Shown here: in pieces, positions 1 through 11,299 of the stretch
How the letters are laid out: every line of letters begins with the position of its first letter
Position numbering within the stretch: the first letter of the stretch is position 1
Source: Sphingomonas limnosediminicola
GTDB lineage: Bacteria > Pseudomonadota > Alphaproteobacteria > Sphingomonadales > Sphingomonadaceae
Direction: 5' to 3'
Assembly: GCF_039537965.1 (NCBI RefSeq)
Contig: NZ_BAABBM010000001.1
Coordinates: forward strand, 310,001-374,000
Length of the DNA: 64,000 nt
Position numbers and translations under genes: made by a program
Notes under the pieces: generated by a model
Database searches by the model: none
Seen by the model: the letters and a program-made list of their open reading frames with translations, nothing else
Told to the model about the DNA's origin: nothing

Positions 1-117
1 CGACGATGCTTATCTGATAGAGGCTCCGTGGTGGGCCACTGGGGAACCGCCGCCTAAGCGAAGCCAATCCGACAAGTAGAAGAAGGCCTAAGAAGGTCGC
101 TAGGCCGAAAACTCATT

Positions 118-870
118 TTAGCCGAGAGGCTGGGCGGCAATCTGGGTGCTTATGTCGCACTCTCCAACGTAAGCAAGTTTGCTACTGCCAGTCGGACTGA
201 ACTCAAACCTGTATCCGTCCTGATCGTCTGTGAACCCTAAGGAAAACATCCCGTCCACGACAAAGTCTTGACGCAGGTGCTGCGGGTCAGGCCCTATTTT
301 AAATTCATAATGAGCGTCGCCGCTCAACGAGCCCTTTGGCGTCAGCGGGGGATCAAACGCGACGTAATCAGTAGTTTTTGGATCGTCTGATGCATTGCCA
401 GATGGATGCACTGCCACCGTCATTGCGACGAGAGGAAGCTTACTATGCCGATCCCCGGCATTGAGTGAGCGTTTGATCGGCTGAACATTCACGTTGGCCT
501 TGTTCGGGTTCACCCACTCTAGGCCGAAGAAGATCCCATCGACGTATCCGTTCGCATAGCTTGGAGCGCCGCACACGCGGTATTTAAGCGGGTAGTTAGC
601 TCCCGTGTACTCCCGCACCCCTTTGTAGATACATAAAGCGACAAAGGCGCCGACCAGCAGACAAGCGGGGATTTTGACCTTTGCCGGAACTGTGTGCCAG
701 CCATAATTAAGCACGAGAACGGCCGCGCAGCCGGCAGTGCCCCAAACGCTGGCCATTATCGGTAGCGCGGCGACGATAGGCCCGGCAAACGCGCCAGCAA
801 GAACCCACAGGATCGGGTTGATCGCTGACCAGATATTGAGGCGCACTGCTTCTGCCTCGGATTTACGCAT
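118..870 (-). CDS. Hypothetical membrane protein of the integrated element
   Basis: A protein of about 250 residues. The N-terminal half holds three hydrophobic segments that could span the membrane; the C-terminal half is polar and probably extracytoplasmic, with two cysteines. I recognise no family. The ATG at 870 (MRKSEAEAV) was chosen; the frame is open to a TTG at 963, which would add 31 residues. It is the leftmost gene seen in the element and is transcribed in the same direction as the capsid-like gene, about 160 bases beyond the last small gene of that cluster. Function unknown; it could be a lysis, exclusion or cargo membrane protein, but nothing in the sequence decides this. Confidence 0.55.
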   Translation of the reverse strand: MRKSEAEAVRLNIWSAINPILWVLAGAFAGPIVAALPIMASVWGTAGCAAVLVLNYGWHTVPAKVKIPACLLVGAFVALCIYKGVREYTGANYPLKYRVCGAPSYANGYVDGIFFGLEWVNPNKANVNVQPIKRSLNAGDRHSKLPLVAMTVAVHPSGNASDDPKTTDYVAFDPPLTPKGSLSGDAHYEFKIGPDPQHLRQDFVVDGMFSLGFTDDQDGYRFEFSPTGSSKLAYVGECDISTQIAAQPLG

Positions 871-1032
871 ACTTCGGCCCCCCCTGCGGAACTTATCCAC
901 AGCGTGCCTCAAAAAGTTGCGTGTGTAAAAAACACTGTCCCCCGGATTGGGGTCGGTTAACAATCGGAGCGAGCGCCGCTCCGACGCGGCTGTCCTTATA
1001 TTCAGCGCTCCCTGTTGGGTGTCGCTAGCTCA

Positions 1033-1269
1033 TCAAACGCCCGTCGCAGGAAAGGGCCCGTAATAAGCCACGGCCATACCGTCGCGCACATCTTTGCCTC
1101 TAGGCCAACAAACAATCCCAGTGCCGACTAGGTTTGTGCCTTGCACAGGGCACGTCATGCTCTTCATCTGCAAATCGTCGACGGTCCCCGGATCGTCGCC
1201 CCAGAGCCGCTTGATCTCCGCTGCCAGGCGGTTTGATGCCTGCGCATAGGTGACCTCGGTGATCTTCAT
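1033..1269 (-). CDS. Small hypothetical protein downstream of capsid gene
   Basis: A 78-residue soluble protein with two cysteines (in MTCPVQG and VCWPRG) and no signal peptide. Its ATG lies one base after the stop of the preceding 80-residue gene, so the two are almost certainly co-translated behind the capsid-like gene. Family not recognised. Position suggests a head-completion or accessory structural role, but this is only inference from neighbourhood. Confidence 0.5.
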   Translation of the reverse strand: MKITEVTYAQASNRLAAEIKRLWGDDPGTVDDLQMKSMTCPVQGTNLVGTGIVCWPRGKDVRDGMAVAYYGPFPATGV

Positions 1270-1270
1270 C

Positions 1271-1513
1271 TTAGCCGCCGTTCACCACACGCAAGGGCCA
1301 TTCCTCCACCGGCAAAATTTGGCGCTGCTTCATTGCCTCAACTTGCCGCTCTAACTCAGTGATCCGCTGTGCCTGGGCCTTGAGCCTTTGCTTCACAGCA
1401 TCTGCGGTAGCAGCGGCCATTCCTCGGCTGGCCTGAGAGACCATCTCCCGAGCCTCGGCCCTCGCGATACTCTTCACCCAAACTTCCACCTGGCTTTCGG
1501 TCGGTGCGTTCAT
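1271..1513 (-). CDS. Small coiled-coil protein coupled to capsid gene
   Basis: An 80-residue protein with a heptad-like central to C-terminal stretch (AQAQRITELERQVEAMKQRQ) that should form a coiled coil. The start is the ATG at 1513 because it overlaps the capsid stop codon by one base (TGATG), a sign of translational coupling; the frame extends slightly further to a TTG at 1519. Coiled-coil proteins next to HK97 capsids can be scaffolds or tail-related, but the family is not recognised. Confidence 0.55.
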   Translation of the reverse strand: MNAPTESQVEVWVKSIARAEAREMVSQASRGMAAATADAVKQRLKAQAQRITELERQVEAMKQRQILPVEEWPLRVVNGG

Positions 1514-2571
1514 CACCAAGTCGCCGTCGTCGTGTAGGCGAGGGCCGGAATGCGCATCGCGTATCCCACCCGCAGAATGCAGCGCAGCACCTTGAAGTCT
1601 CCCTGAAATGCGGAGCGCACCGGCGCAGCAACGATGTTGGGTGAGCCTGCAGTCCCGATTTGCTGCGGGCTGGTATCCTCAAAGTGCGCAGTCGCATCGG
1701 GCGCGAACGTGATTTCGGGCGCAGCACCAAAGCCGCTGGCGAAGGCGTTGGCATCAAGCACGGCAACCGTACCGCTGGCCAAGCTCGGCACCACAATGAC
1801 GGGCGTCTTGAACCCTGAGCCGGCAAGCAGCTGCAGGGTCATCGCTTGTGCAGGAGCCGCCACGATCACGATTTTGCCGCCGCCGCCAGCCGCTGCGACT
1901 GCCGCCGTAAGAGCCTTCAGATCGGTGGCCATCGCGCCTTGTCCGCCGCCCGCCGTTCCGGCCGTCGCCGAAATGCCGTTGAACAAGCCTGCTGGTGCCG
2001 TGGCAGAGGCAGTGTCTGCCGAAAACATCTTGGTATCGAGCGCCAGCGCAACGCTGTCGTTCACGAGGTCGCTGATGATGGTTTCAGCGTCTTGCGCCGA
2101 GCGCTCGGCAAGCTCGTTCGTTAGGGCACTTAGCGCCACCAGTTTGCGCGGCGTCAGTGTCGTAGAAGCGAGGTTGCCTTGAAACACTGGGGCAGGACCG
2201 CCCTCCGCGACCCAAGCAGCTTGCGGGAAGGCCGTCGCTAGCTTCGGCAAGGTCACTGCGCCGCGCGCCAAGCTGAACTGCGTTCCCGCTTCGATCAGCT
2301 GTGCTGCGCCGCTCTTCCCGCGTAGCGACTTGAGGAAGGGGCCGATGACGGTCGCAGCGAGCGAACCGGCCCATGCAGATGTGCTCGTGTCAGCAGGGGC
2401 AACAGCGGACTTGGAGATGATCGCGGCGGCTTCTTTGCCGTAGAGGCGCGCAGCGACCTGGTCAGCTTCTTCGTGCGTGAGGTGGGCGACAGCGCGGATG
2501 GTAATTGCGCGGCGCCATTCTCGCTGAGGATCGAAAGCTCGGACATTCGGCTCGAACGGTAATGTTGCCAT
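1513..2571 (-). CDS. HK97-fold phage major capsid-like protein
   Basis: A 352-residue protein whose middle and C-terminal parts read like an HK97 gp5-type capsid subunit: the stretch around residues 125 to 185 (AAWVAEGGPAPVFQ, then KLVALSALTNELAERS and NDSVALALDTKMF) matches the E-loop to P-domain pattern of that family, followed by an alanine/glycine-rich A-domain. It is shorter than many HK97 capsids, and no protease or portal gene is next to it in the window. The start has AAGGAG 8 bases upstream, inside an 8-bp hairpin. It is coupled to the 80-residue gene by a TGATG overlap. Likely encoded for building element-specific capsids or derived from a prophage. Confidence 0.75.
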   Translation of the reverse strand: MATLPFEPNVRAFDPQREWRRAITIRAVAHLTHEEADQVAARLYGKEAAAIISKSAVAPADTSTSAWAGSLAATVIGPFLKSLRGKSGAAQLIEAGTQFSLARGAVTLPKLATAFPQAAWVAEGGPAPVFQGNLASTTLTPRKLVALSALTNELAERSAQDAETIISDLVNDSVALALDTKMFSADTASATAPAGLFNGISATAGTAGGGQGAMATDLKALTAAVAAAGGGGKIVIVAAPAQAMTLQLLAGSGFKTPVIVVPSLASGTVAVLDANAFASGFGAAPEITFAPDATAHFEDTSPQQIGTAGSPNIVAAPVRSAFQGDFKVLRCILRVGYAMRIPALAYTTTATW

Positions 2572-2575
2572 TGGC

Positions 2576-2596
2576 GAGGCTCCTTGCTGGAGCCTC
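2576..2596 (-). promoter_or_regulatory. Hairpin sequestering the capsid gene ribosome-binding site
   Basis: A perfect 8-bp inverted repeat (GAGGCTCC / GGAGCCTC) with a 5-base loop ends 4 bases before the capsid ATG. On the minus strand the Shine-Dalgarno AAGGAG runs from the loop into the 3' arm, so the folded RNA would hide it. This suggests translational control of capsid synthesis; no experiment supports it here. Confidence 0.45.
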
Positions 2597-2654
2597 TCTT
2601 TCGCTCGTTTTCAGAGTACTGGCGGAGGTGCGCCTCCGTAATTCATTCAGACGG

Positions 2655-4217
2655 TTAAATTCGGGAGGGTCTCATGCCCAATTCCTTCCGATGACGGCGG
2701 AGCGCTCGGCCCAATGCACCAAAGCCTAGCAACAACATTGCCCACGTGGACGGTTCGGGCACTGCCCCACCGTTCCCCCCGCCGCCGCCGCCGCCGCCGC
2801 CGTCGTCGTCACTTATCAGATGAGAAATCCAATCTAGCTGGACTAGTCCGGGTTGGACGAAGGAAAGGCCGACTGTGGTGGTTTGGCCGCCCAGTCCCAC
2901 TAGCCGGAACCGGTCAACGGCGTTCGCAAACGTGTAAATGCCGCCACCAGTGATTGTATCGCCAGTGTTGACGTAGTTGCCGAGCATTTCATCGAAGGTC
3001 CAGATTTCGACCGAGTTAGTGATGATGCTGTCCAAACTCAGTGCGGCAATAAGTGGGCCGTTGGATACGATGAAGTCGTCAACCGAGCCTGTTGAAGGGT
3101 CGAGGTAAGTGAACCCCCCCGTGCCGAGGAAAGAAAAGTTCTTTTGATAAGTGTCAGGTGCGACGAGAGTTGCCGCAACGACCAGTGGATTGAGAGTGGA
3201 ATTGCCACTTACGGTAGCTGGAGGTGCAGCTCCCAAGGCAATTGATTCGCTGGCAATCCAGCTTGCGAATGATGAAACGCGGGTCCAGTAATTTACCTCT
3301 CCGTATAAATCACCGCCTCCGCTTGGATCGAACAGTAAAGGCGTTTCGCCCGGTCCTCCGCTTACCACGCCGATGATAGTGTTACCGACTACAAGTGGAC
3401 CTCCGCTGTCTCCGTGCGCGGGGGCTGCCTGCAAGAAATTGCTGGGATAGCCACGCGAGAAGATTGCACCTGGGCTCAGAAACGTACTCTTCAGCACGTT
3501 CGCATCCGCAGAATAGTCTACTTCTGTCAGGCCGGCCAACTTAAGGCCGCTGGAGCCCGCGATCTCCCCTGCCGTGCCGTTGCCGAGGTTTCCATAGCCG
3601 ATCGTTACCGCAAACGAAGGGTCGATAGTGGCTTCATTTGTCCCCGTGAAAACTGAAAGGAAGTCAGGCGACGTAGGCATTCCGTCCGTTTGTTTGCCGC
3701 CCAATCTCACTAGGGCAATATCGCCAGATCCGGCTGTCGCGCCATCGTACCCGGGATAAATTGAGACTGCGTCAATTTGGGCGGCGTATTGATAAGCATC
3801 CTCCGATGGACCGCCGATGAGAGTTACGGATGCGCCGTTATCAAATGTGCCGCCCTTCGCAACGAGCCCCGGCGTAAACACGGAAACTACAGTTCCTTTG
3901 GCGGCATCGTAAGCAAACATGCAGTGCGCGGCGGTAAGTACGAGGTTCGCGGAGATCATACTTCCGGTGCAACCCTTACCGGCCGATGTGTTGTGCTCGA
4001 ACGGAACGTTAATGAGGAGTTCGCCCACAGCGTAAAAACGCTGCTGGTTGGCCAGGTTGACGTATCGAGCGTAATTCGGGTTACCGGACGAGATAGAGTA
4101 GTCGGTTCTAGTGAGCACGGCTCCCGCCGGACTGCCCAATGCGCCGTACAACACTGCGGCCAAAGGCAGTGCCAAGCGTGAAACAGAAGACCGAAGCCAC
4201 GTACCCATTCCGACCAT
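2655..4217 (-). CDS. Secreted trypsin-like serine protease with PEP-CTERM sorting signal
   Basis: A 520-residue exported peptidase of the S1 family. A signal peptide fills about residues 1 to 33. The catalytic triad is visible: His98 in LTAAHC, Asp166 in GDIALVRL and Ser271 in HGDSGGPLV. A beta-rich region follows, then a DDDGGGGGGGGGNGG linker and a C-terminal PEP-CTERM signal starting at VPEPSTWAM (about residue 486) with a hydrophobic stretch and arginine-rich end, normally handled by an exosortase. The start at 4217 has GGGAGG upstream; ATGs further upstream in frame lack one. It lies between the element's small genes and the capsid gene, which is unusual cargo. Confidence 0.85.
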   Translation of the reverse strand: MVGMGTWLRSSVSRLALPLAAVLYGALGSPAGAVLTRTDYSISSGNPNYARYVNLANQQRFYAVGELLINVPFEHNTSAGKGCTGSMISANLVLTAAHCMFAYDAAKGTVVSVFTPGLVAKGGTFDNGASVTLIGGPSEDAYQYAAQIDAVSIYPGYDGATAGSGDIALVRLGGKQTDGMPTSPDFLSVFTGTNEATIDPSFAVTIGYGNLGNGTAGEIAGSSGLKLAGLTEVDYSADANVLKSTFLSPGAIFSRGYPSNFLQAAPAHGDSGGPLVVGNTIIGVVSGGPGETPLLFDPSGGGDLYGEVNYWTRVSSFASWIASESIALGAAPPATVSGNSTLNPLVVAATLVAPDTYQKNFSFLGTGGFTYLDPSTGSVDDFIVSNGPLIAALSLDSIITNSVEIWTFDEMLGNYVNTGDTITGGGIYTFANAVDRFRLVGLGGQTTTVGLSFVQPGLVQLDWISHLISDDDGGGGGGGGGNGGAVPEPSTWAMLLLGFGALGRALRRHRKELGMRPSRI

Positions 4218-4390
4218 GCCTGCCTCCCAAAACATCGAGGACATCAAGCGATTAAATCGAACGAAGTAGCAAAAGGCGTTGTAAGCCGACGGTAACGGCT
4301 GTTAATGATTTGTTAACGCAATTCGGCGCGTTGATCAAGGAAAGTTTCGCGCTCCATGTCCACTCGCTGAGGAGTGTCGGTCGCTCGCAA

Positions 4391-4639
4391 CTAGGAAAAC
4401 CTTCTGGGGGTTGCCGAGGCGAACTGATCGAATTGCATTTGCGCAGCACGTCCAATTGCATCGCGCAGGTGTGCCTTGTCATCGGGTAGCAGCCCCGCAG
4501 ATACCATCGCCTGCAAATGCTCTTCGGTCAGCGTCACGACGGTGCAAGCGCGGTGCGCACGCACATTCGCCCGATAGCGCTCGTTATTCGCGCGCTTGAG
4601 TTCGCGCTTCCGCTCGGTGGGATCGATGGCGCGGTTCAC
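4391..4639 (-). CDS. Small hypothetical protein of the integrated element
   Basis: An 82-residue basic protein with an N-terminal ERKRELKRANNERYRANVRAH stretch likely to be helical, then a segment with LTEEHLQAMVSAGLLPDDKAHLRDAIGRA. It starts with GTG at 4639, which overlaps the stop codon of a 25-codon open frame just upstream (GTGA), so it may be translated by coupling. Family not recognised. The arrangement and charge suggest a nucleic-acid-binding accessory protein, but that is a guess. Confidence 0.55.
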   Translation of the reverse strand: MNRAIDPTERKRELKRANNERYRANVRAHRACTVVTLTEEHLQAMVSAGLLPDDKAHLRDAIGRAAQMQFDQFASATPRRFS

Positions 4640-4713
4640 GCGCAGCCTTTCGCCTGCGCCAAATGGTCATCTCGCGCGCGCGCGCGAGTGCGACCGCGGT
4701 TAGGCTGGGTCAT
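4636..4713 (-). CDS. Putative 25-residue leader peptide upstream of the 82-residue gene
   Basis: An ATG at 4713 preceded by AAGGA at good spacing opens a 25-codon frame (MTQPNRGRTRARARDD...) that ends by overlapping the GTG start of the next gene (GTGA). It is very arginine-rich in the middle because it runs through an 18-bp CG palindrome. It could be a coupling leader or a chance frame. Confidence 0.35.
   Translation of the reverse strand: MTQPNRGRTRARARDDHLAQAKGCA
4671..4688. repeat. 18-bp perfect palindrome of alternating CG
   Basis: The sequence CTCGCGCGCGCGCGCGAG is self-complementary over all 18 bases. It sits inside the putative leader frame, about 30 bases upstream of the GTG of the 82-residue gene. 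It could form a hairpin in RNA or a left-handed DNA tract; function unknown. Confidence 0.6.
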
Positions 4714-4794
4714 GGGACGATCCTTCGGCGGAATTAGCGGTTAGCGTTGCTTGCATGCTGGGCGGCGGTTTTCAGTTCGCGCAGTTTGGATTTT

Positions 4795-5142
4795 TCATCG
4801 TGCCCCCCACAGCGGCGAGGACAGCACCGACCGTTCCTTGTCGCGAGCCCAGTCGGCTTCATGGTCTTGCACCGGCGCGACAGGGCAGCCGTTGAGGTCG
4901 ATGCGATAAGCGCCAGGCACATAGGTGCTGCGCAGGTAACGATCGGACAGCGTGTAAAAGTCCAATGCCACGCCGACCTCGCGCTCGTCCCAGCCAGCGG
5001 CGATTAGGTCGTCGCGTATGCCGACCTTCAGGGGCAGAGGTTGGGTGGGGAAGGCGGCGGGATGTCGCGCCTTCATTCGGCGAAGGATTTCCTTTGCTTC
5101 GCGCCGACGAGCAAAGAGGGCCATGCGATATTCAGCGCTCAT
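4795..5142 (-). CDS. ProQ/FinO-domain RNA-binding protein
   Basis: A 115-residue protein covering one ProQ/FinO domain. Recognisable pieces are the helical start (AKEILRRMKARHPAAFPTQ), the PLPLKVGIRDDLIAAG segment, the ALDFYTLSDRYLRS segment and the YRIDLNGCPVAPV strand, in the family order. Members bind structured RNA and act as RNA chaperones (FinO on plasmid F, ProQ globally). The start is ATG 5142 with AGGAAA upstream; the frame extends to 5208 without a ribosome site. The gene lies directly beyond the iteron region that follows the primase, so it may control element copy number or capsid expression through RNA. That role is inference. Confidence 0.8.
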   Translation of the reverse strand: MSAEYRMALFARRREAKEILRRMKARHPAAFPTQPLPLKVGIRDDLIAAGWDEREVGVALDFYTLSDRYLRSTYVPGAYRIDLNGCPVAPVQDHEADWARDKERSVLSSPLWGAR

Positions 5143-5178
5143 GTTTGTTTCCTGCGAATGGACGAGGCGAGAGGGTCG

Positions 5179-5441
5179 CGAAACCGATTGGGGCCGGTCG
5201 CCAATCATATCGGTTTCGCAGGAAGCTCCTGATTTCGGTCCGAAATTCGAGGGCGAAACCAGCGAAACGCCCGAAACTACATTTCTTAAGAGTAGTCTCG
5301 CCCAGGCTCCCCCTTCCGTCCGTTCTAAAGTTCCAAGAAGAGGAGGAAGGTTTCGGTAGTTTCGCCTGCTGCAAGCACATGAAAATCATGCGAATTTGCC
5401 GAAACCATGCGCGAGTTTCGGAGCGGTTTCGCGGCGTTTCG
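5179..5441. other. Iteron-rich segment, candidate replication origin of the element
   Basis: This noncoding stretch between the primase stop and the ProQ-like start holds eleven exact copies of GTTTCG or its complement CGAAAC: CGAAAC at 5179, 5254, 5263, 5272 and 5400; GTTTCG at 5213, 5350, 5359, 5415, 5426 and 5436. Three copies are spaced exactly 9 bases (5254/5263/5272), as are two others (5350/5359). The first two form an 11-base inverted pair (5178-5188 / 5209-5219), and ATTTCGGTCCGAAAT at 5232-5246 is a palindrome. Satellite origins of the SaPI/PICI type lie 3' of the rep gene and consist of such iterons flanking a melting region. The rest of the roughly 300-base gap shows no gene. Confidence 0.6.
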
Positions 5442-5448
5442 GTTACCA

Positions 5449-7365
5449 TCACATCGTCTCCTGCGGAAACAGGACGGCGTGAGGCACTTCGGGGACGGCA
5501 TCTCCACCGCCCTCTGCACTGCCCTTGATCCAAGCCCTACGCGGCGTTCCGCCAATTCGAAGAGTTGAGTTTGATTTGGTCCAGCCCAACGATTGCATTA
5601 CGTTCGCGAGCCGCTGGCCCATGTCGGCAGTGCGCCTTGCCTTGTCGCCGAGGCCCAAAGCGTCCCAGACGTCGCTGATCGCCAGCTTGCCAGCCTCGAT
5701 GGCCTGCAGTCGTTCGGCCAATATCTCGTAGAATGGATCTTCCAGCAGTCGGCTGGCTTGATGCTCGGCCGCCGCGCTCCACAGTCGCTCCGGCAAGCGT
5801 ATCGAGACACCCTGCGCCTCACGATGAGAAGCTTCCGCCCAAAGCTGGTCTCGGTCGCGGCGAAGCGCATCAAGATCGAATTTGCCCACCCGGACAGGCC
5901 AGAAGCGGCGGTTGCCGGTCATGTCCCGCAGATATTGGCTGTCGTTGGTGGTGCCGAAGAAGACGCATTGTCGCGGCTGCTCGACGGTCATTCGACCGTA
6001 GGCGGGGCGGGCCTTGTCGACCTGCCGAGAAATCATCGCTTTGGCCTGCTCGACCTCGCTGCGGCGCATGCCTTTGAGCTCAGCAAGTTCTATGATCCAA
6101 CGCCCAGCGGTGCGCTCCATTACGACCTTGCTGTCGGAATCAAGCGGCAGGTCGTCGGCGAACCACTCATCGTGCACCGCGAGAATTGCCAGGGCTGAAC
6201 TCTTGCCTGTGCCTTGTCCGCTCTCAAGAACCACCATTTCGTCGAACTTGATGCCCGGCTGGCGAACACGCCGCACGGCTGCGATGAGCGCGAGGGAGGC
6301 GACAGCTTGCACATATTCGCAGTCTTCCGCCTCACCATAGGTGGCGAGCCAGCAATCTAGCCGTTCAATTCCATCCCAAACATTTGCGTCGAGGTATTGG
6401 ACGACCGGGTGAAACGAGCCGCGGCGTGCATGGTCGGTTACGATGTCGTGCCAGCGGTCCTTGCCGAAATGGAGGTTCCAGCGTTCCTCCGTCTGCAAGC
6501 GCAGGCGAGTGAGGGCCGTATCGTCGAGCGCGGGCCCGAAGCCTTCAAGTCCTTTGACCACGTATCTGCAGGCAAAGGTATCGTAGCCAACTCCGACGCC
6601 CAGCTTGCCAAGCGCTACACGCGCATTTTCAGGCGAGCGATAAAGCTTGCCGTCTTTATCTGTGGCGAATTGGCCGTGAGCGGTCGCCCAAGCTTCCGGG
6701 TCTGTTAGTACTGGTGCCTGCGCTACGAGCTCTAAAAGGTCGGCGATCTCGTTTCCTGCATCGAGCCAGTCTGAGACGTCATCCTTCAGGTCCAACTCAG
6801 GCAACTCGATGATCTTCACGCTGCTGACGTGCGGATGCACTGATCGGAAGACGCGAGCAGCATGCTCTCGGCCAACTTCGTCGTTGTCAGGCAGGATCAC
6901 CACGTCCCGGTTGCGGAGGGCGTCAGAGAACGAGGGCTGCCATTTATTAGCGCCGCATGAGCCTGTCGTTGCGGTGAGCCCCAAACTGGCTAGCCGATCT
7001 GCATCTTTCTCCCCTTCGCACACGAATACGACGTCTCTTGGCGGTGAGGCCAACAACTCGGGCAGTCGATAAAGAAGGTGAGGGTGGTCACCCTTGCCGC
7101 TCAGCCAATCCTTATGGTCCTCTGGTTCGAGCCGATCGCCGAACGAAACCAGGTTTCGACGCCCGATGGTGAAGACCTTTTCTCCATCGCCGTTGAAACC
7201 CTTCCGGACTGTGTAGGCATAACCGCCATCTGCAAGGCGATAGTCGTATTCTGCGACCGTCTCGGTTTGTGCATCCCAACGGGGGCGCCGAGGATCATCG
7301 GAGGAGAACGACCCACCAAGCGATCTCGGTGAGGCCACGTCAGCCCGGGAATAGGCGCGCGTCAC
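5449..7365 (-). CDS. TOPRIM / VapE-family primase-helicase of the element
   Basis: A 638-residue replication protein. An N-terminal TOPRIM-like domain shows EGEKDA (residues 118-123) and DNDEVG (160-165). The C-terminal half is a VirE/VapE-type superfamily 3-like ATPase with Walker A GQGTGKSS (383-390), a Walker B-like IIELAEL (424-430), GTTND (471-475) and GNRRFWP (484-490). No CHC2 zinc finger is visible at the N terminus. Such proteins start and unwind replication of phage satellites and some prophages. The GTG start at 7365 overlaps the stop of the AlpA-like gene (GTGA), so both form one operon. The iteron cluster lies directly after its stop codon. Confidence 0.85.
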   Translation of the reverse strand: MTRAYSRADVASPRSLGGSFSSDDPRRPRWDAQTETVAEYDYRLADGGYAYTVRKGFNGDGEKVFTIGRRNLVSFGDRLEPEDHKDWLSGKGDHPHLLYRLPELLASPPRDVVFVCEGEKDADRLASLGLTATTGSCGANKWQPSFSDALRNRDVVILPDNDEVGREHAARVFRSVHPHVSSVKIIELPELDLKDDVSDWLDAGNEIADLLELVAQAPVLTDPEAWATAHGQFATDKDGKLYRSPENARVALGKLGVGVGYDTFACRYVVKGLEGFGPALDDTALTRLRLQTEERWNLHFGKDRWHDIVTDHARRGSFHPVVQYLDANVWDGIERLDCWLATYGEAEDCEYVQAVASLALIAAVRRVRQPGIKFDEMVVLESGQGTGKSSALAILAVHDEWFADDLPLDSDSKVVMERTAGRWIIELAELKGMRRSEVEQAKAMISRQVDKARPAYGRMTVEQPRQCVFFGTTNDSQYLRDMTGNRRFWPVRVGKFDLDALRRDRDQLWAEASHREAQGVSIRLPERLWSAAAEHQASRLLEDPFYEILAERLQAIEAGKLAISDVWDALGLGDKARRTADMGQRLANVMQSLGWTKSNSTLRIGGTPRRAWIKGSAEGGGDAVPEVPHAVLFPQETM

Positions 7366-7679
7366 TCTACAGTCTCGACTGATACGAAAGCCCGAGCCAT
7401 TCCGCCCTCGACCAAGGCCTCAAGGTCCATCAGTCGATAGCCAGTGATCTTTTCGCTTAGGCGGACACGCTGCGGCCAGTTGGGATCGTCCCGCTCGTGC
7501 TCGCGGAGCGTTTTTTCGGTAGTCCCGAGGAACGCAGCTGCTTCCTTGAAGCGCAGCAACGCGTGACCGCTCAGGTTACGGACGGTTGTCCGCGCAATCG
7601 CCATCTGTTGTTCGTGGCGGTCGCGCTTGGCTTCCCAATCTGCGAGGGCTTCGCCCGTTCGGTGTTTGCGTGCAGGCAT
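7362..7679 (-). CDS. AlpA-like helix-turn-helix regulator / excisionase
   Basis: A 105-residue protein. After a basic N-terminal region comes a winged-helix type segment: LLRFKEAAAFLGTTEKTLRE (helix-turn-helix), then WPQRVRLSEKITGYRLMDLE, the wing and last helix pattern seen in AlpA/MerR-like excisionases of P4-type satellites. It would bind element DNA to control the integrase or the downstream primase. It is the first gene of the leftward operon and its stop overlaps the primase start. The roughly 320 bases upstream (to the divergent gene at 8002) should contain its promoter. Family assignment is by pattern only. Confidence 0.7.
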   Translation of the reverse strand: MPARKHRTGEALADWEAKRDRHEQQMAIARTTVRNLSGHALLRFKEAAAFLGTTEKTLREHERDDPNWPQRVRLSEKITGYRLMDLEALVEGGMARAFVSVETVE

Positions 7680-8001
7680 GCGTCATCATCCTTCTCGGGC
7701 CGTAGCCTCTGATTTTCGGAATGATGCCGCCGTTTGGGTGGGACGGTGCCCATGCGCGTTAGCGCTGATTGGCATTCAATTTGCTGCGGCTGGAAAATCC
7801 GACCGCTCCGGCCTTATGCGCCAGCGTCGCACGGGCGCAAAATGTTTTATTGGCGAATGCGTCAACGTTTTTTCATGACGCTATCGGAGCACTGAAGCTA
7901 ATGGCAGGTTTCGACCCATTCCCGCCATTAGCCGCGACCTGGTTGCAGGCCATTCCTCCGTCGCCTAGGCGAACATCGTAGCCCAACGACTGAAGTTTAC
8001 C
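7680..8001. other. Divergent intergenic region between alpA-like and outer-membrane genes
   Basis: This 322-base gap separates the leftward replication operon from the rightward outer-membrane gene, so it should carry both promoters. I found no convincing promoter pair or open frame. It does contain the palindromic repeat described separately at 7897-7932. Confidence 0.5.
7897..7932 (+). repeat. Palindromic repeat, copy 1
   Basis: A 36-base unit with 9-base inverted arms (GCTAATGGC / GCCATTAGC). The first 14 bases, GCTAATGGCAGGTT, recur with one mismatch and in opposite orientation at 9030-9043, on the other side of the outer-membrane gene. It resembles dispersed REP-like repeats. Confidence 0.55.
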
Positions 8002-9012
8002 GTGAACCGGACATCCTTGCTTCTCGGCGCCGCAGTCCTCGCGCTCGGCTCCCCTGTTCTTGCCGATCACATGGGTCCGTCCGGGTTTGGCGCGGGCGGC
8101 GGCATCAGCGTCTTCAGCCCAGAAACGATGGACGGCAGACATTGGGGCGCAGCATTCCGCATCACGTACACGCGGCCCGACCAACGCTCAGATGAAGAGC
8201 TGCAAACCTTGGCCGAACATGGGATTGCGGCCCACAACACGGATTACAGCCTCAACGCAGGACTGGGCGTCGCTTATGGCCTCAACCATCACCTGACGCT
8301 GTCCGCAGAGTTGCCCTATGTCCGCCGCGACCATCTCCGCGAGGGAGACGAGATCGGTGTCGAGCAGCTTGGCACCGTTGAGGGTATCGGCGACCTCAAC
8401 CTGCTCGCCAAATATCGGCTGACCGACGGGCAAGATCTCGGCCTAGCGCTTGTCGGTGGCATCAAGGTGCCGACCGGCAGCACGCACAAGACTGCGAATG
8501 GCGAGCGCCTCGAGACGGAACACCAGCCGGGCACCGGCAGCTGGGACCCGATCTTCGGCGCGTCGGCATCCGCGAAGCTCGGCATCATGCGACTGACGGC
8601 CAGCGCGCTGTACCAGCTGGCTACGACCGGCGCCGAGAACACGCGACTTGGAAACCGACTGCAAGGCGGGGTCGCCCTGTCTCATCGGTTCGGCCGAGCG
8701 GAGCAAGAGCCTGCCGAGAGCCGCAACCACCATCACGGCGATGAGCTGGATGAGCACCACGAGCATGCGCACTCCAGTTGGGATGCGCTCATCGAAGTCG
8801 CAGGAGAGTGGGAGGGCCGGCAGAAGATCGACGGCGAGGTAGAGCAAGCAAGTGGCGGAAAATGGGCCTGGATAGCGCCGGGGCTTCGGTTCAACGCCGC
8901 GACAGGCTGGTCCGCGTCAGCTGGGATCGCCGTTCCATTCTGGCAACAGATCAGGCCCTCGCACCCTGACAACCGCTACCGCGTCACTCTGTCATTGGGT
9001 CGGACCTTCTAA
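8002..9012 (+). CDS. Secreted outer-membrane beta-barrel protein with histidine-rich loop
   Basis: A 336-residue exported protein with a signal peptide ending near ALGSPVLADH. Alternating hydrophobic strands and a C-terminal aromatic residue (RVTLSLGRTF) indicate an outer-membrane beta barrel of the transporter / phenol-degradation MetA-like type, which often accompanies metal-efflux genes. A loop around residue 240 is very rich in His and acidic residues (NHHHGDELDEHHEHAHSS), suggesting metal binding. The GTG at 8002 is the start in the track; the next in-frame Met would remove the signal. It is the only rightward gene of this size in the element and is flanked by inverted repeats, so it looks like inserted cargo. 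Confidence 0.65.
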   Translation: MNRTSLLLGAAVLALGSPVLADHMGPSGFGAGGGISVFSPETMDGRHWGAAFRITYTRPDQRSDEELQTLAEHGIAAHNTDYSLNAGLGVAYGLNHHLTLSAELPYVRRDHLREGDEIGVEQLGTVEGIGDLNLLAKYRLTDGQDLGLALVGGIKVPTGSTHKTANGERLETEHQPGTGSWDPIFGASASAKLGIMRLTASALYQLATTGAENTRLGNRLQGGVALSHRFGRAEQEPAESRNHHHGDELDEHHEHAHSSWDALIEVAGEWEGRQKIDGEVEQASGGKWAWIAPGLRFNAATGWSASAGIAVPFWQQIRPSHPDNRYRVTLSLGRTF

Positions 9013-9374
9013 CGTCCGCTTTCCACCCAAACCTGCCACTAGCCGAAATCCCTGTCGACACGGACGGCTCCGCACAAATCCACAACATTGTTGATGCTGC
9101 TTCATAATGGAGATTGCGTAACAGCACGTCCGATGTTCTACTTTCCGTGCCTGGCACGAACGAAGCCACGACAAAGGGAGAACACTCATGGGGCCGTGAT
9201 AGGGGATGAACCCATACAAGCGCTTTCAGTTGAGTGCGAAAACGGGCCGTCGCAAATAGACCTAGCTCACCCCCGAACCGAAATATCGGCGGGCATTAGG
9301 CTTCCTCTCGCGGCGAGCAGGAAAAATGAACACTGACTGGCTGCTGAGCCCAATCTCGAAGAGAAGGAGGCCTT
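9013..9374. other. Intergenic region downstream of the outer-membrane gene
   Basis: This 362-base stretch carries the second repeat copy near its left end. I see no convincing gene in the rest: the short open frames here lack ribosome sites or overlap the better supported 59-residue gene that follows. Confidence 0.45.
9030..9043 (-). repeat. Palindromic repeat, copy 2 (partial, inverted)
   Basis: The complement of this site reads GCTAGTGGCAGGTT and matches 13 of 14 bases of the copy at 7897-7910, in opposite orientation. The second palindrome arm of copy 1 is not preserved here. Together the two copies bracket the outer-membrane gene. Confidence 0.5.
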
Positions 9375-9554
9375 ATGGCTTACCTGAACTTTTGGCTACA
9401 CATGGACGACGGGTACATGTGGCGTTGGTACTGTTCCGAACCGGATGGCACCCTCGTCGCTATTTCAGCTCGTTCGTTTTCGAAATTAGCCGATGCCGAG
9501 CGTGCTGCTGACGCAGCGCGAACGAGCATCGGAAACCGCAACCTGGCAGCCTAA
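9375..9554 (+). CDS. 59-residue YegP/DUF1508-like protein
   Basis: An ATG with AAGGAGG ideally placed upstream opens a 59-codon frame (MAYLNFWLHMDDGYMWRWYC...) ending at TAA. The pattern of a short beta strand, WRWYCSEPDGTLVAISARSFS and an alanine-rich helix (DAERAADAART) resembles one repeat of the YegP/DUF1508 fold. Function of that family is unclear. It is followed at once by a terminator-like hairpin, which supports its being an expressed gene. It is convergent with the integrase. Confidence 0.65.
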   Translation: MAYLNFWLHMDDGYMWRWYCSEPDGTLVAISARSFSKLADAERAADAARTSIGNRNLAA

Positions 9555-9574
9555 GACTGCAAGCTCGTGCCGGC

Positions 9575-9600
9575 TTGGGCGGTCTTCCGAGGCCGCCCAA
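9575..9600 (+). terminator. Terminator-like hairpin after the 59-residue gene
   Basis: Arms TTGGGCGG and CCGCCCAA pair perfectly over 8 bp, extendable by two more pairs, around a 6-base loop, 20 bases after the stop codon. Only a weak T stretch follows. It lies between two convergent genes and may serve both. Confidence 0.5.
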
Positions 9601-9637
9601 TTGCCTCACTTCGAGCGAAGACTGACAGCGAAGTTGG

Positions 9638-11080
9638 TCACTCAATCCCTCCTGTGATCCGCACCAACTTGAGGGCCCACCAGTCCATCAATTCTCGCTT
9701 CCGTAACCGGTAGCGCTTCTGCAAATCGCCGTGATCGTAGGCTTTCGTCACGCCAACCGTGATTTCGTGGTTCACCGCCGCTTGCAGCACTTCTATCGGC
9801 GCTGACCATGTGATCTCGCCGTCTGCATTCTCGTCGCCGTCGCGGCAGCGAGTAATGAAAGTGTGCCGTAAATCATGGATGCGCCACGGCACCATTTCCA
9901 CGTTCGCCACCTGTGCCAACGCGGCCTTCTTCCGCGCCACAGTGTCCGCTCGTAGCGCTCCGCCAGCGCGTATTGCTCGATGGTCCTCTTCGCTCAGCCC
10001 CACAAGATTGCCTTTCACGCGACGGTCCAGCGCAGCCTTGAGCTTGTTCCAGCCGCTGATCGGTGTCGCGCCCGTGTCACTCGGAAATACTAGACCGCTC
10101 CGCCGCTGGGCACTGCCGGTGTTCGCAGGGCGGTGGAGGGCATCATAAACTGCGCTTGCATCCTCCAGCAGCTGTATGGCCGGCACGCTCAGTGCCACTT
10201 CGTGCGCGCCCTTCCGGTTTTTCACGCGTTCCTTCGGCAGCACGATCAGCTTGCGCTCAAGGTCAACTTCTTCCCACATGAGACCCGCAATCTCATTCTT
10301 ACGCTGGCCAGTGAGCATCAGGAGCTTAATGACCGCGCCGAAGGGCCAGCCCTGTTCGCTCGCTGCCTGCCAGATTGCCCGCAACTCGTCGTCCGTGAGC
10401 GCCCGCGTGATTTTCTTCGGCGGCTGACGATTGGTCATGCCGGTCGTCGGTAGCGCGCCGTTGAACAGGCCGCGCGACAACGCGAATTTGAAGACGCCGC
10501 GAACAACCTTCAGTGTCTCGTCGACGGGGCCGCCAGACTTGTCGAGTTGCGTCAGCAGGCGGGCAACCATCGGCGTCGTGATGTCGGACAAAGCGCAGCT
10601 GCCGAGGGTGGGGAACACCCGCTGCTCCAACAGACGCTCTCGGGCGACCGCCGTAGTCTGAGTTACGGCGCGCTTGCGACCGCCGACCAGCTGGCCAGAT
10701 TTCATCGCTGCGATGTAATCTTCGGCCACCGCGCGGAAGGTGCCAGCCTGTTGGTCCGTGGCTGCTCGCTCGGCCTCTAACTTCTCCTGAGCCAGCCGCA
10801 TTTCGGGGTCCACGCCATCGGCAGCCAGCCGCATATAATGACGGGCCTTTTGACGCGCGGCGGTGACGTCCATCGCGGGAAATCGCCCAACAACCGATTT
10901 GCGCCGCTGCGTCCTCAGGCCGCCTGCATCCGCTAGCCGATAGATTATGGCCCACGACTTCACACCGTTCGGAGTGATCCAAAGGAAAAGCCCAGGCTCA
11001 CTATCTGATACTTCGGTGCGACCGGCGTGAGGACGACGATAACGTTCAACGGCTGCGTCGGTGAGGTGCGTCTTTGCCAT
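9638..11080 (-). CDS. Tyrosine recombinase / integrase with DUF4102 arm-binding domain
   Basis: A 480-residue site-specific recombinase that inserts and excises the element. An N-terminal arm-DNA-binding domain of the DUF4102 type (about 1-95) is followed by a SAM-like core-binding domain (about 110-205) and the catalytic domain. Active-site residues are Arg260 (TGQRKNEI), His402 and Arg405 (HDLRHTF), His438 (VNHEI) and the nucleophile Tyr448 (KAYDH). A roughly 70-residue insertion precedes the HxxR box. It is transcribed away from the tRNA remnant about 170 bases to its right, the usual position next to an attachment site. Confidence 0.92.
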   Translation of the reverse strand: MAKTHLTDAAVERYRRPHAGRTEVSDSEPGLFLWITPNGVKSWAIIYRLADAGGLRTQRRKSVVGRFPAMDVTAARQKARHYMRLAADGVDPEMRLAQEKLEAERAATDQQAGTFRAVAEDYIAAMKSGQLVGGRKRAVTQTTAVARERLLEQRVFPTLGSCALSDITTPMVARLLTQLDKSGGPVDETLKVVRGVFKFALSRGLFNGALPTTGMTNRQPPKKITRALTDDELRAIWQAASEQGWPFGAVIKLLMLTGQRKNEIAGLMWEEVDLERKLIVLPKERVKNRKGAHEVALSVPAIQLLEDASAVYDALHRPANTGSAQRRSGLVFPSDTGATPISGWNKLKAALDRRVKGNLVGLSEEDHRAIRAGGALRADTVARKKAALAQVANVEMVPWRIHDLRHTFITRCRDGDENADGEITWSAPIEVLQAAVNHEITVGVTKAYDHGDLQKRYRLRKRELMDWWALKLVRITGGIE

Positions 11081-11249
11081 GAGAAGCTCCGAAAAGGGTC
11101 TCTCAGGGGTCTTTTGGGGAGTTCTTCAACGGTCCCCAACGTTCCCCTGCGTTCGATCCTTCTCGCTCCGAAACGACAAAAAGCAAAGGATTATCGTGGC
11201 TTAGCGTCAACTAAAGTTGTTGTCCGTTCGCCAACGTTCGTGGGCAACC

Positions 11250-11299
11250 CACCCTTCACACGGGTGGGGTCGTAGGTTCAATCCCTACCGCGCCCACCA
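11250..11299 (+). other. attR: 3' half of tRNA-Val(CAC) left by element integration
   Basis: These 50 bases fold as the anticodon arm (stem CACCC/GGGTG, loop TTCACAC, anticodon CAC), T arm (GTAGG, TTCAATC, CCTAC), 3' acceptor strand CGCGCCC and CCA end of a tRNA-Val. No D arm or 5' acceptor strand precedes it. Integration into a tRNA gene leaves an intact gene at one end and this partial copy at the other; since the remnant is on the plus strand at the right end, the intact tRNA-Val should lie left of this window. The identity block beginning at the anticodon arm points to crossover in that arm. Confidence 0.8.

Follow-up and report, generated by a model that had tools for sequence, protein, structure and literature searches.

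At positions 5179–5441 of a 64,000-nucleotide stretch of the Sphingomonas limnosediminicola genome (contig NZ_BAABBM010000001.1, positions 310,001 to 374,000, the whole of which we call the window), a gene for a primase-helicase, Pri-Rep, is followed by a dense array of the hexamer GTTTCG, which raises the question of what these repeats are for. An earlier note on this DNA had proposed a candidate origin of the kind found in Staphylococcus aureus pathogenicity islands (SaPIs) and phage-inducible chromosomal islands (PICIs). Our analysis leads us to consider it very probable that 5179–5441 is the replication origin (ori) of a PICI-like island integrated at a tRNA-Val gene, and that it is used by the island's own Pri-Rep. 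An origin bound by Pri-Rep is the best explanation because of the position of the array, the spacing of its repeats, the recurrence of the same place with a changed word in other elements, and the PriRep fold of the protein. We stop short of certainty because the AT-rich block is weak and many homologues are without arrays.

A word search of the window returned all eleven exact copies of GTTTCG/CGAAAC that the note had counted in these 263 bases, with starts from 5179 to 5436. The genome of 2,848,166 bp contains 1837 such words (893 + 944), which gives an expectation of 0.17 in the 258 bp tested, in line with the note's estimate of less than one per strand. The Poisson P of this enrichment is about 1e-16, or about 1e-9 once corrected for 2080 words and all windows of 258 bp. 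Over the full 64 kb we found 51 words where 46.8 were expected, and since there is no window-wide enrichment, that at 5179–5441 is local. The note had also considered that the word might be equally dense elsewhere in the chromosome, which it is not. Of the tandem pattern GTTTCGNNNGTTTCG, in its 9-bp form, the genome has four occurrences, and three lie within the array.

The array lies entirely inside the 306-bp gap that separates the Pri-Rep stop codon (5449–5451) from the likely ATG (5142) of a gene for a ProQ/FinO-family protein; the alternative ProQ start at 5208 would make that gene overlap the outermost iteron. The gap (5143–5448) has a GC content of 0.54, compared with 0.62 for the window. 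Adjoining the Pri-Rep stop codon is triplet A (5415–5441, plus strand), with starts at 5415, 5426 and 5436 and thus a pitch of 11 and 10 bp, followed by a lone inverted copy (5400–5405, minus strand), a pair at 9-bp pitch (5350–5364, plus strand; starts 5350 and 5359) and triplet B (5254–5277, minus strand; starts 5254, 5263 and 5272), also at 9-bp pitch and opposed in orientation to triplet A. Counted from the Pri-Rep stop, the two triplets sit 8/18/29 and 172/181/190 bp downstream. Further on, a 15-bp palindrome, ATTTCGGTCCGAAAT (5232–5246), is built of two one-mismatch iterons, and an 11-bp inverted pair (5178–5188 with 5209–5219) holds the two outermost iterons, which start at 5213 (plus strand) and 5179 (minus strand). 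The palindrome, the inverted pair and two groups with 9-base spacing had all been described in the note; triplet A is a third group that we add, together with the reading of the palindrome as two one-mismatch copies. The most AT-rich 30–40-mers of the array (0.63 AT from 5265, 0.60 from 5323) mark a weak candidate melting region (5265–5399), which, like the array as a whole, the palindrome and the inverted pair, is assigned to neither strand.

Pri-Rep itself (5449–7365, minus strand; 638 residues) is homologous to helicases of the PriRep type. It consists of a TOPRIM-like N-terminus, a VapE-type helicase (326–538; Pfam VapE, 1.4e-70) and a predicted winged-helix C-terminus (about 541–614). The Toprim match (113–187) is below the family cut-off, and at E up to 1 the Pfam matches comprise VapE, Toprim, Toprim_2 and a below-cut-off DUF5906; the protein also matches DNA primase entries in PHROGs. 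An AlphaFold2 model had a mean predicted local distance difference test (pLDDT) score of 72.1, with low confidence for residues 1–109. In this model the C-terminal segment forms a helix, a short strand, two helices and two long strands (block pLDDT about 78–88), which we read as a probable winged helix. Among the matches listed by a fold search, the helicase and the winged-helix-like C-terminus matched PriRep1 on double-stranded DNA (PDB 7pds), leaving the N-terminal primase part outside the match. The molecule in that entry is named 'Similar to D. nodosus vapE', and we take it to be a staphylococcal island protein. Within the Pri-Rep gene, at 7144–7158, we also observed a 15-bp palindrome, CGAAACCAGGTTTCG, which combines two iteron words and is found once in the genome. 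A general operator pair at the 5′ end was rejected, as 16 words were seen near gene starts compared with 13.9 expected, and among the homologues tested the close opposed pair occurs in this window alone.

Homologous loci were drawn from genome contigs (25 loci), viral contigs (29, and 31 new of 51), genomes across the class (29), near relatives (6) and plasmids (14 records, out of 156 that had a match). In each, we looked within 450 bp either side of the stop codon for hexamers clustered beyond what the locus background would give, at a log10P of -5 or better. The statistic takes a first-order background per locus with a Bonferroni-like correction, and the counts are best judged against those in control windows. 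The 450-bp margin was chosen after inspection of the first set of 42 loci and left unchanged for all later ones. In that first set, a significant cluster at the stop codon was present in the window and in 21 of the 42 homologous loci, compared with 4 of 484 control windows (12 of 55 loci were left out as short, cut or duplicate genes). A later set gave 14 of 29 loci against 8 of 379 controls (2 of 31 skipped; near-duplicates L097/L098, L101/L102, and L115–L117 with L123 included). For plasmids with a VapE gene the counts were 5 of 6 against 3 of 110 controls and then 4 of 8 against 2 of 39, together 9 of 14 (L131 and L133 being near-duplicates), and a further set, counted without controls, gave 9 of 30 closed genes (5 of 35 were open, and some had little sequence past the stop). 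Among all the loci, L004 and L006 are also near-duplicates. Among near relatives, homologues were found in 5 of 100 genomes including this one, the others being weak, and the class-wide and viral searches yielded better ones. Elsewhere in the loci the array words were near background (292 seen, 251 expected).

The pitch recurs along with the place. The commonest step between copies on one strand is 9 bp (48 of 180, and 88 of 180 at 8–10 bp, in 42 non-redundant loci selected for having arrays), and in many of the 42 array loci the first copy is no more than a few tens of bases from the stop. It lies 170–412 bp before the stop in L016, L017, L021–L023, L041 and L089, and 175–373 bp after it in L058, L074, L086, L105 and L109. 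In the Sphingomonas loci L021, L022 and L023 the repeats stand in an open frame 109–419 bp before the stop and would also be translated. The opposed triplets of the window resemble those of L037 (-2/7/16 and 83/92/101) and L106. Some relatives resemble Pri-Rep chiefly in the N-terminal primase part; their C-terminal halves are divergent, presumably other helicase types as judged by motif, and several of these relatives carry arrays. The comparison of homologues that the note had proposed spoke for the origin: many that retain the primase-helicase have an array at this place, spelled with another word, and many homologues have no significant array by our test.

A conserved hexamer was rejected, as the words vary by element (TGAAACCG, CGATAA, GCTAAC, GTAATA, GGTTCA, GTGACA and others), the nearest to that of the window being TGAAACCGTT in L106. 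The C-terminal domain varies more than the helicase: in 20 VapE-type homologues aligned with Pri-Rep, the helicase domain is 39–59% identical and the C-terminal domain 13–29%. Across 61 array loci (log10P of -4 or better), mean word similarity climbs with C-terminal similarity. In the one similarity band tested, 0.22–0.6, which was our own choice, 36 pairs had a mean word score of 2.72 compared with 1.76 when permuted, with 0 of 5000 permutations as high (48 clusters), a permutation that leaves common descent in. This statistical link between word and domain fits recognition of the word by the domain.

Several observations weigh against an origin used in this way. The link between word and domain could also reflect shared descent, and in plasmids L129 and L130 the C-termini are alike (0.77) and the words differ, which shows that a word can change without much change in the domain. 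No array reached the threshold in 21 of 42, 21 of 30 (several of which end soon after the stop), 15 of 29 and, among plasmids, 5 of 14 loci, and the arrays of L016, L017 and L021–L023 fall inside the 3′ end of the gene. The AlpA/excisionase-like small regulator of the island (7362–7679, minus strand) gave only a distant match (phrog_66, 2.1e-4; Pfam AlpA at E 0.18, below the cut-off). Finally, the AT-rich block reaches 0.60 AT over 40 bp, compared with 0.62–0.93 in 18 other loci, although loci of similar GC content (L037, L038 and L076) reach 0.62–0.65 at most. The candidate origin of the note is favoured by place, enrichment and homologues; an AT-rich block would be expected to separate the iteron sets, and the one here is weak.

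If the array is the origin, the island would excise and then circularise, and Pri-Rep would use its C-terminal winged-helix domain to bind the GTTTCG iterons. The opposed iteron sets on either side of the spacer would load two helicase rings, the two rings would melt the spacer, and replication would start with the protein's own TOPRIM primase domain. We infer each of these activities, namely DNA binding by Pri-Rep, two-ring loading, melting, priming and origin activity itself.

The same repeats might instead be operator sites, bound by the AlpA-like protein or by Pri-Rep in the control of the downstream ProQ and capsid genes rather than replication. The array does lie upstream of a co-directional gene, the repeats of iteron plasmids can be autoregulatory, and the palindromic iteron pair inside the Pri-Rep gene is unique in the genome. 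However, arrays occur without ProQ: none of 12 viral VapE records, which may be fragments, has a ProQ match, and 7 of them have an array at a log10P of -5 or better. Five plasmid arrays lie between annotated genes that converge, an arrangement in which a promoter would not be expected (the gene tables are incomplete), the copy number and pitch are typical of origins, and the palindromic pair toward the 5′ end is not general among homologues. We regard control of transcription as an improbable function of the array. ProQ as a constant partner of the array was rejected, a match being present in 2 of the 18 records examined, both closely related plasmids (L131 and L133).

Two further explanations were weighed against the origin and found less probable still. 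A 105-aa open reading frame (ORF; 5132–5449, minus strand) runs through the whole gap, from the Pri-Rep stop (TGATG) into the ProQ start, and overlaps the neighbouring genes at both ends, so the hexamers could be repeated codons. Its GC content by codon position is flat (0.49/0.56/0.57), whereas that of Pri-Rep, ProQ, AlpA and the integrase is 0.67–0.70 / 0.46–0.50 / 0.66–0.71, the capsid gene being less contrasted (0.65/0.57/0.70). Moreover, 151 other loci hold no similar ORF (at least 40 aa, E up to 1), the words occur on both strands, and steps of 10 and 11 bp break the frame. Given the flat GC content and the lack of a homologue in 151 loci, the coding explanation was rejected as very unlikely. 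A packaging site (pac- or cos-like) or a recombination site is the least likely of all: satellites need packaging signals and the island has a capsid-protein homologue, but scans of the island proteins, ten at a time, recognised no terminase, similar arrays are found on small plasmid records without annotated phage structural genes (again with incomplete gene tables), and the integration site lies elsewhere, at tRNA-Val.

An initiator helicase with iterons 3′ of its gene is a kind of system already known from SaPIs and PICIs, and the island extends this design to the present host. PICI origins directly adjoin the 3′ side of the initiator gene and comprise an AT-rich region flanked by two iteron sets, and the pri-rep-ori of EcCICFT073 supports replication (PMC6092414). 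SaPI Rep recognises downstream iterons via its C-terminal domain, and that of Cch2 was shown to bind (PMC7581432). The note's comparison with these islands is backed by sequence, fold and published origin position (PMC6092414, PMC7581432). As in SaPIbov1 and EcCICFT073, the array is directly 3′ of the Pri-Rep gene and consists of short iterons in two sets (PMC6092414). The island also has an integrase and its own attachment site, and its 11.6 kb falls within the 7–20 kb of phage satellites (PMC13376191). In contrast to SaPIs and PICIs, it has another iteron word, a weak AT-rich spacer, a distant AlpA match and no recognised terS, and the primase part of Pri-Rep is TOPRIM-like, whereas the primases of SaPIbov1 and SaPI5 are AEP-type (archaeo-eukaryotic primases; PMC7581432). 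The Cch2 helicase of the staphylococcal cassette SCCmec likewise binds repeats downstream of its own gene through its C-terminal domain, but is of the D5/Primase_Cterm type and has AAGTG repeats in three copies only (PMC7581432). The plasmid pRN1 also needs a region downstream of its replication gene (PMC4234260). In the collection of literature searched, no paper contained both VapE, or virulence-associated protein E, and iteron, a result that applies to that collection and those terms.

The features of a PICI found in the island are an integrase with a specific attachment site, a Pri-Rep protein and, by position and enrichment, iterons immediately 3′ of rep; opposed iteron sets are present, with a weakly AT-rich region between them. 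In PICIs the primase and initiator are sometimes fused, and the islands are induced by a helper phage and travel in its particles. Those of E. coli have an AlpA-type regulator, for which the island offers the distant match described above, and Gram-negative PICIs are transcribed in one direction, as are the main genes of the island apart from the plus-strand gene at 8002–9012. P4-like satellites have an alpha-type replication protein, an AEP primase with a D5-type helicase, and other core genes such as psu, delta and sid. Pri-Rep does not fit the alpha type, having no AEP primase match (Pfam, E up to 1); psu, delta and sid were not named among the ten island proteins scanned (Pfam, PHROGs; ORFs without assignment remain). 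Classical iteron plasmids have a Rep_3-family initiator beside their iterons; the iteron-adjoining protein here is a VapE-type helicase, and the ten island proteins scanned gave no Rep_3 match (Pfam).

The VapE plasmids differ from the island in being extrachromosomal, in having other words and, mostly, in a stronger AT-rich block. In NC_012209, NZ_CP056195, NZ_OX291476, NZ_OP242302, NZ_CP019881 and NZ_CP056590, a VapE-domain gene is closely followed by 8–13 repeats of one word, and the AT content over 40 bp reaches 0.85–0.93 in the first four and 0.72 in NZ_CP019881. In L129, L130, L131, L133 and L158, 8–11 repeats occupy a gap between convergent annotated genes, and the four measured (L129, L130, L131 and L133) have a strongly AT-rich block close to the repeats. 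The detrended GC-skew minimum falls at most 350 bp from the VapE stop in L128, L131 and L133 and not in L129, L130 and L132; with agreement in 3 of 6 plasmids, GC skew is mixed as independent evidence of an origin. Replicon typing named none for 13 of 14 plasmid records, L153 being rep_cluster_2299, and our literature searches found no description of these plasmids' origins, for which the position of the array suggests a location. In a Nostoc plasmid, L156, nine GTTTCA repeats are found some 3.8 kb upstream of the VapE stop codon, which itself has no significant cluster.

A broader proposal is possible, though we put it forward tentatively and as somewhat less likely than its opposite. Primase-helicases of the VapE and TOPRIM types may make up a wide group of replicons that are self-contained and lack another recognised initiator, in islands, phages and small plasmids. 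Their shared design would pair a fast-changing C-terminal winged helix with a matching word, repeated every 9 bp or so where the initiator gene ends and predictable from the domain; the palindromic pair at 7144–7158 may be autoregulatory. The loci supply dozens of initiator–word pairs in which the helicases are alike and the C-terminal domain and word change, making origin choice by such initiators directly testable through binding assays.

The island that carries the array is about 11.6 kb long and is bounded by a perfect 50-bp repeat (genome positions 309648–309697 and 321250–321299). An intact tRNA-Val(cac) gene (genome 309623–309697) supplies the left copy with its 3′ end, 303–352 bp left of the window; the portion within the window spans 1–11299 (no strand) and ends in the right copy of the attachment site (11250–11299, plus strand). 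In 9 of 11 loci from the genus, tRNA-Val lies 18–409 bp from the Crp/Fnr-like gene that flanks the island here, the arrangement of an empty site; in the other 2 it was not found within the stretch examined. The 50-bp sequence, with at most 2 mismatches, is present in 6 of the 12 other genomes of the genus searched.

The tyrosine integrase (9638–11080; Pfam Phage_integrase 3e-13, Arm-DNA-bind_3 1.3e-15), the AlpA-like gene, Pri-Rep, the ProQ gene directly past the array (4795–5142; PF04352 1.3e-16 for the 137-aa form; start at 5142 preferred over 5208 from sequence) and a gene for an HK97-type major capsid protein homologue (1513–2571; PF05065 8.2e-15, TIGR01554 6.3e-13) are all transcribed from the minus strand. 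No terminase or portal gene was recognised beside the capsid homologue, which is the sole packaging or interference gene (terS included) recognised among the island proteins scanned, small ORFs without assignment remaining. Ccm of SaPIbov5, a capsid-protein homologue, redirects the shape and size of the helper capsid, and by analogy the island homologue may act on a helper capsid in the same way. The ProQ and capsid genes are separated by a gene at 2655–4247 for a trypsin-like protein with a PEP-CTERM sorting motif, an unusual cargo, and between the AlpA-like gene and the integrase a gene for an outer-membrane-like protein (8002–9012; weak matches) is transcribed from the plus strand.
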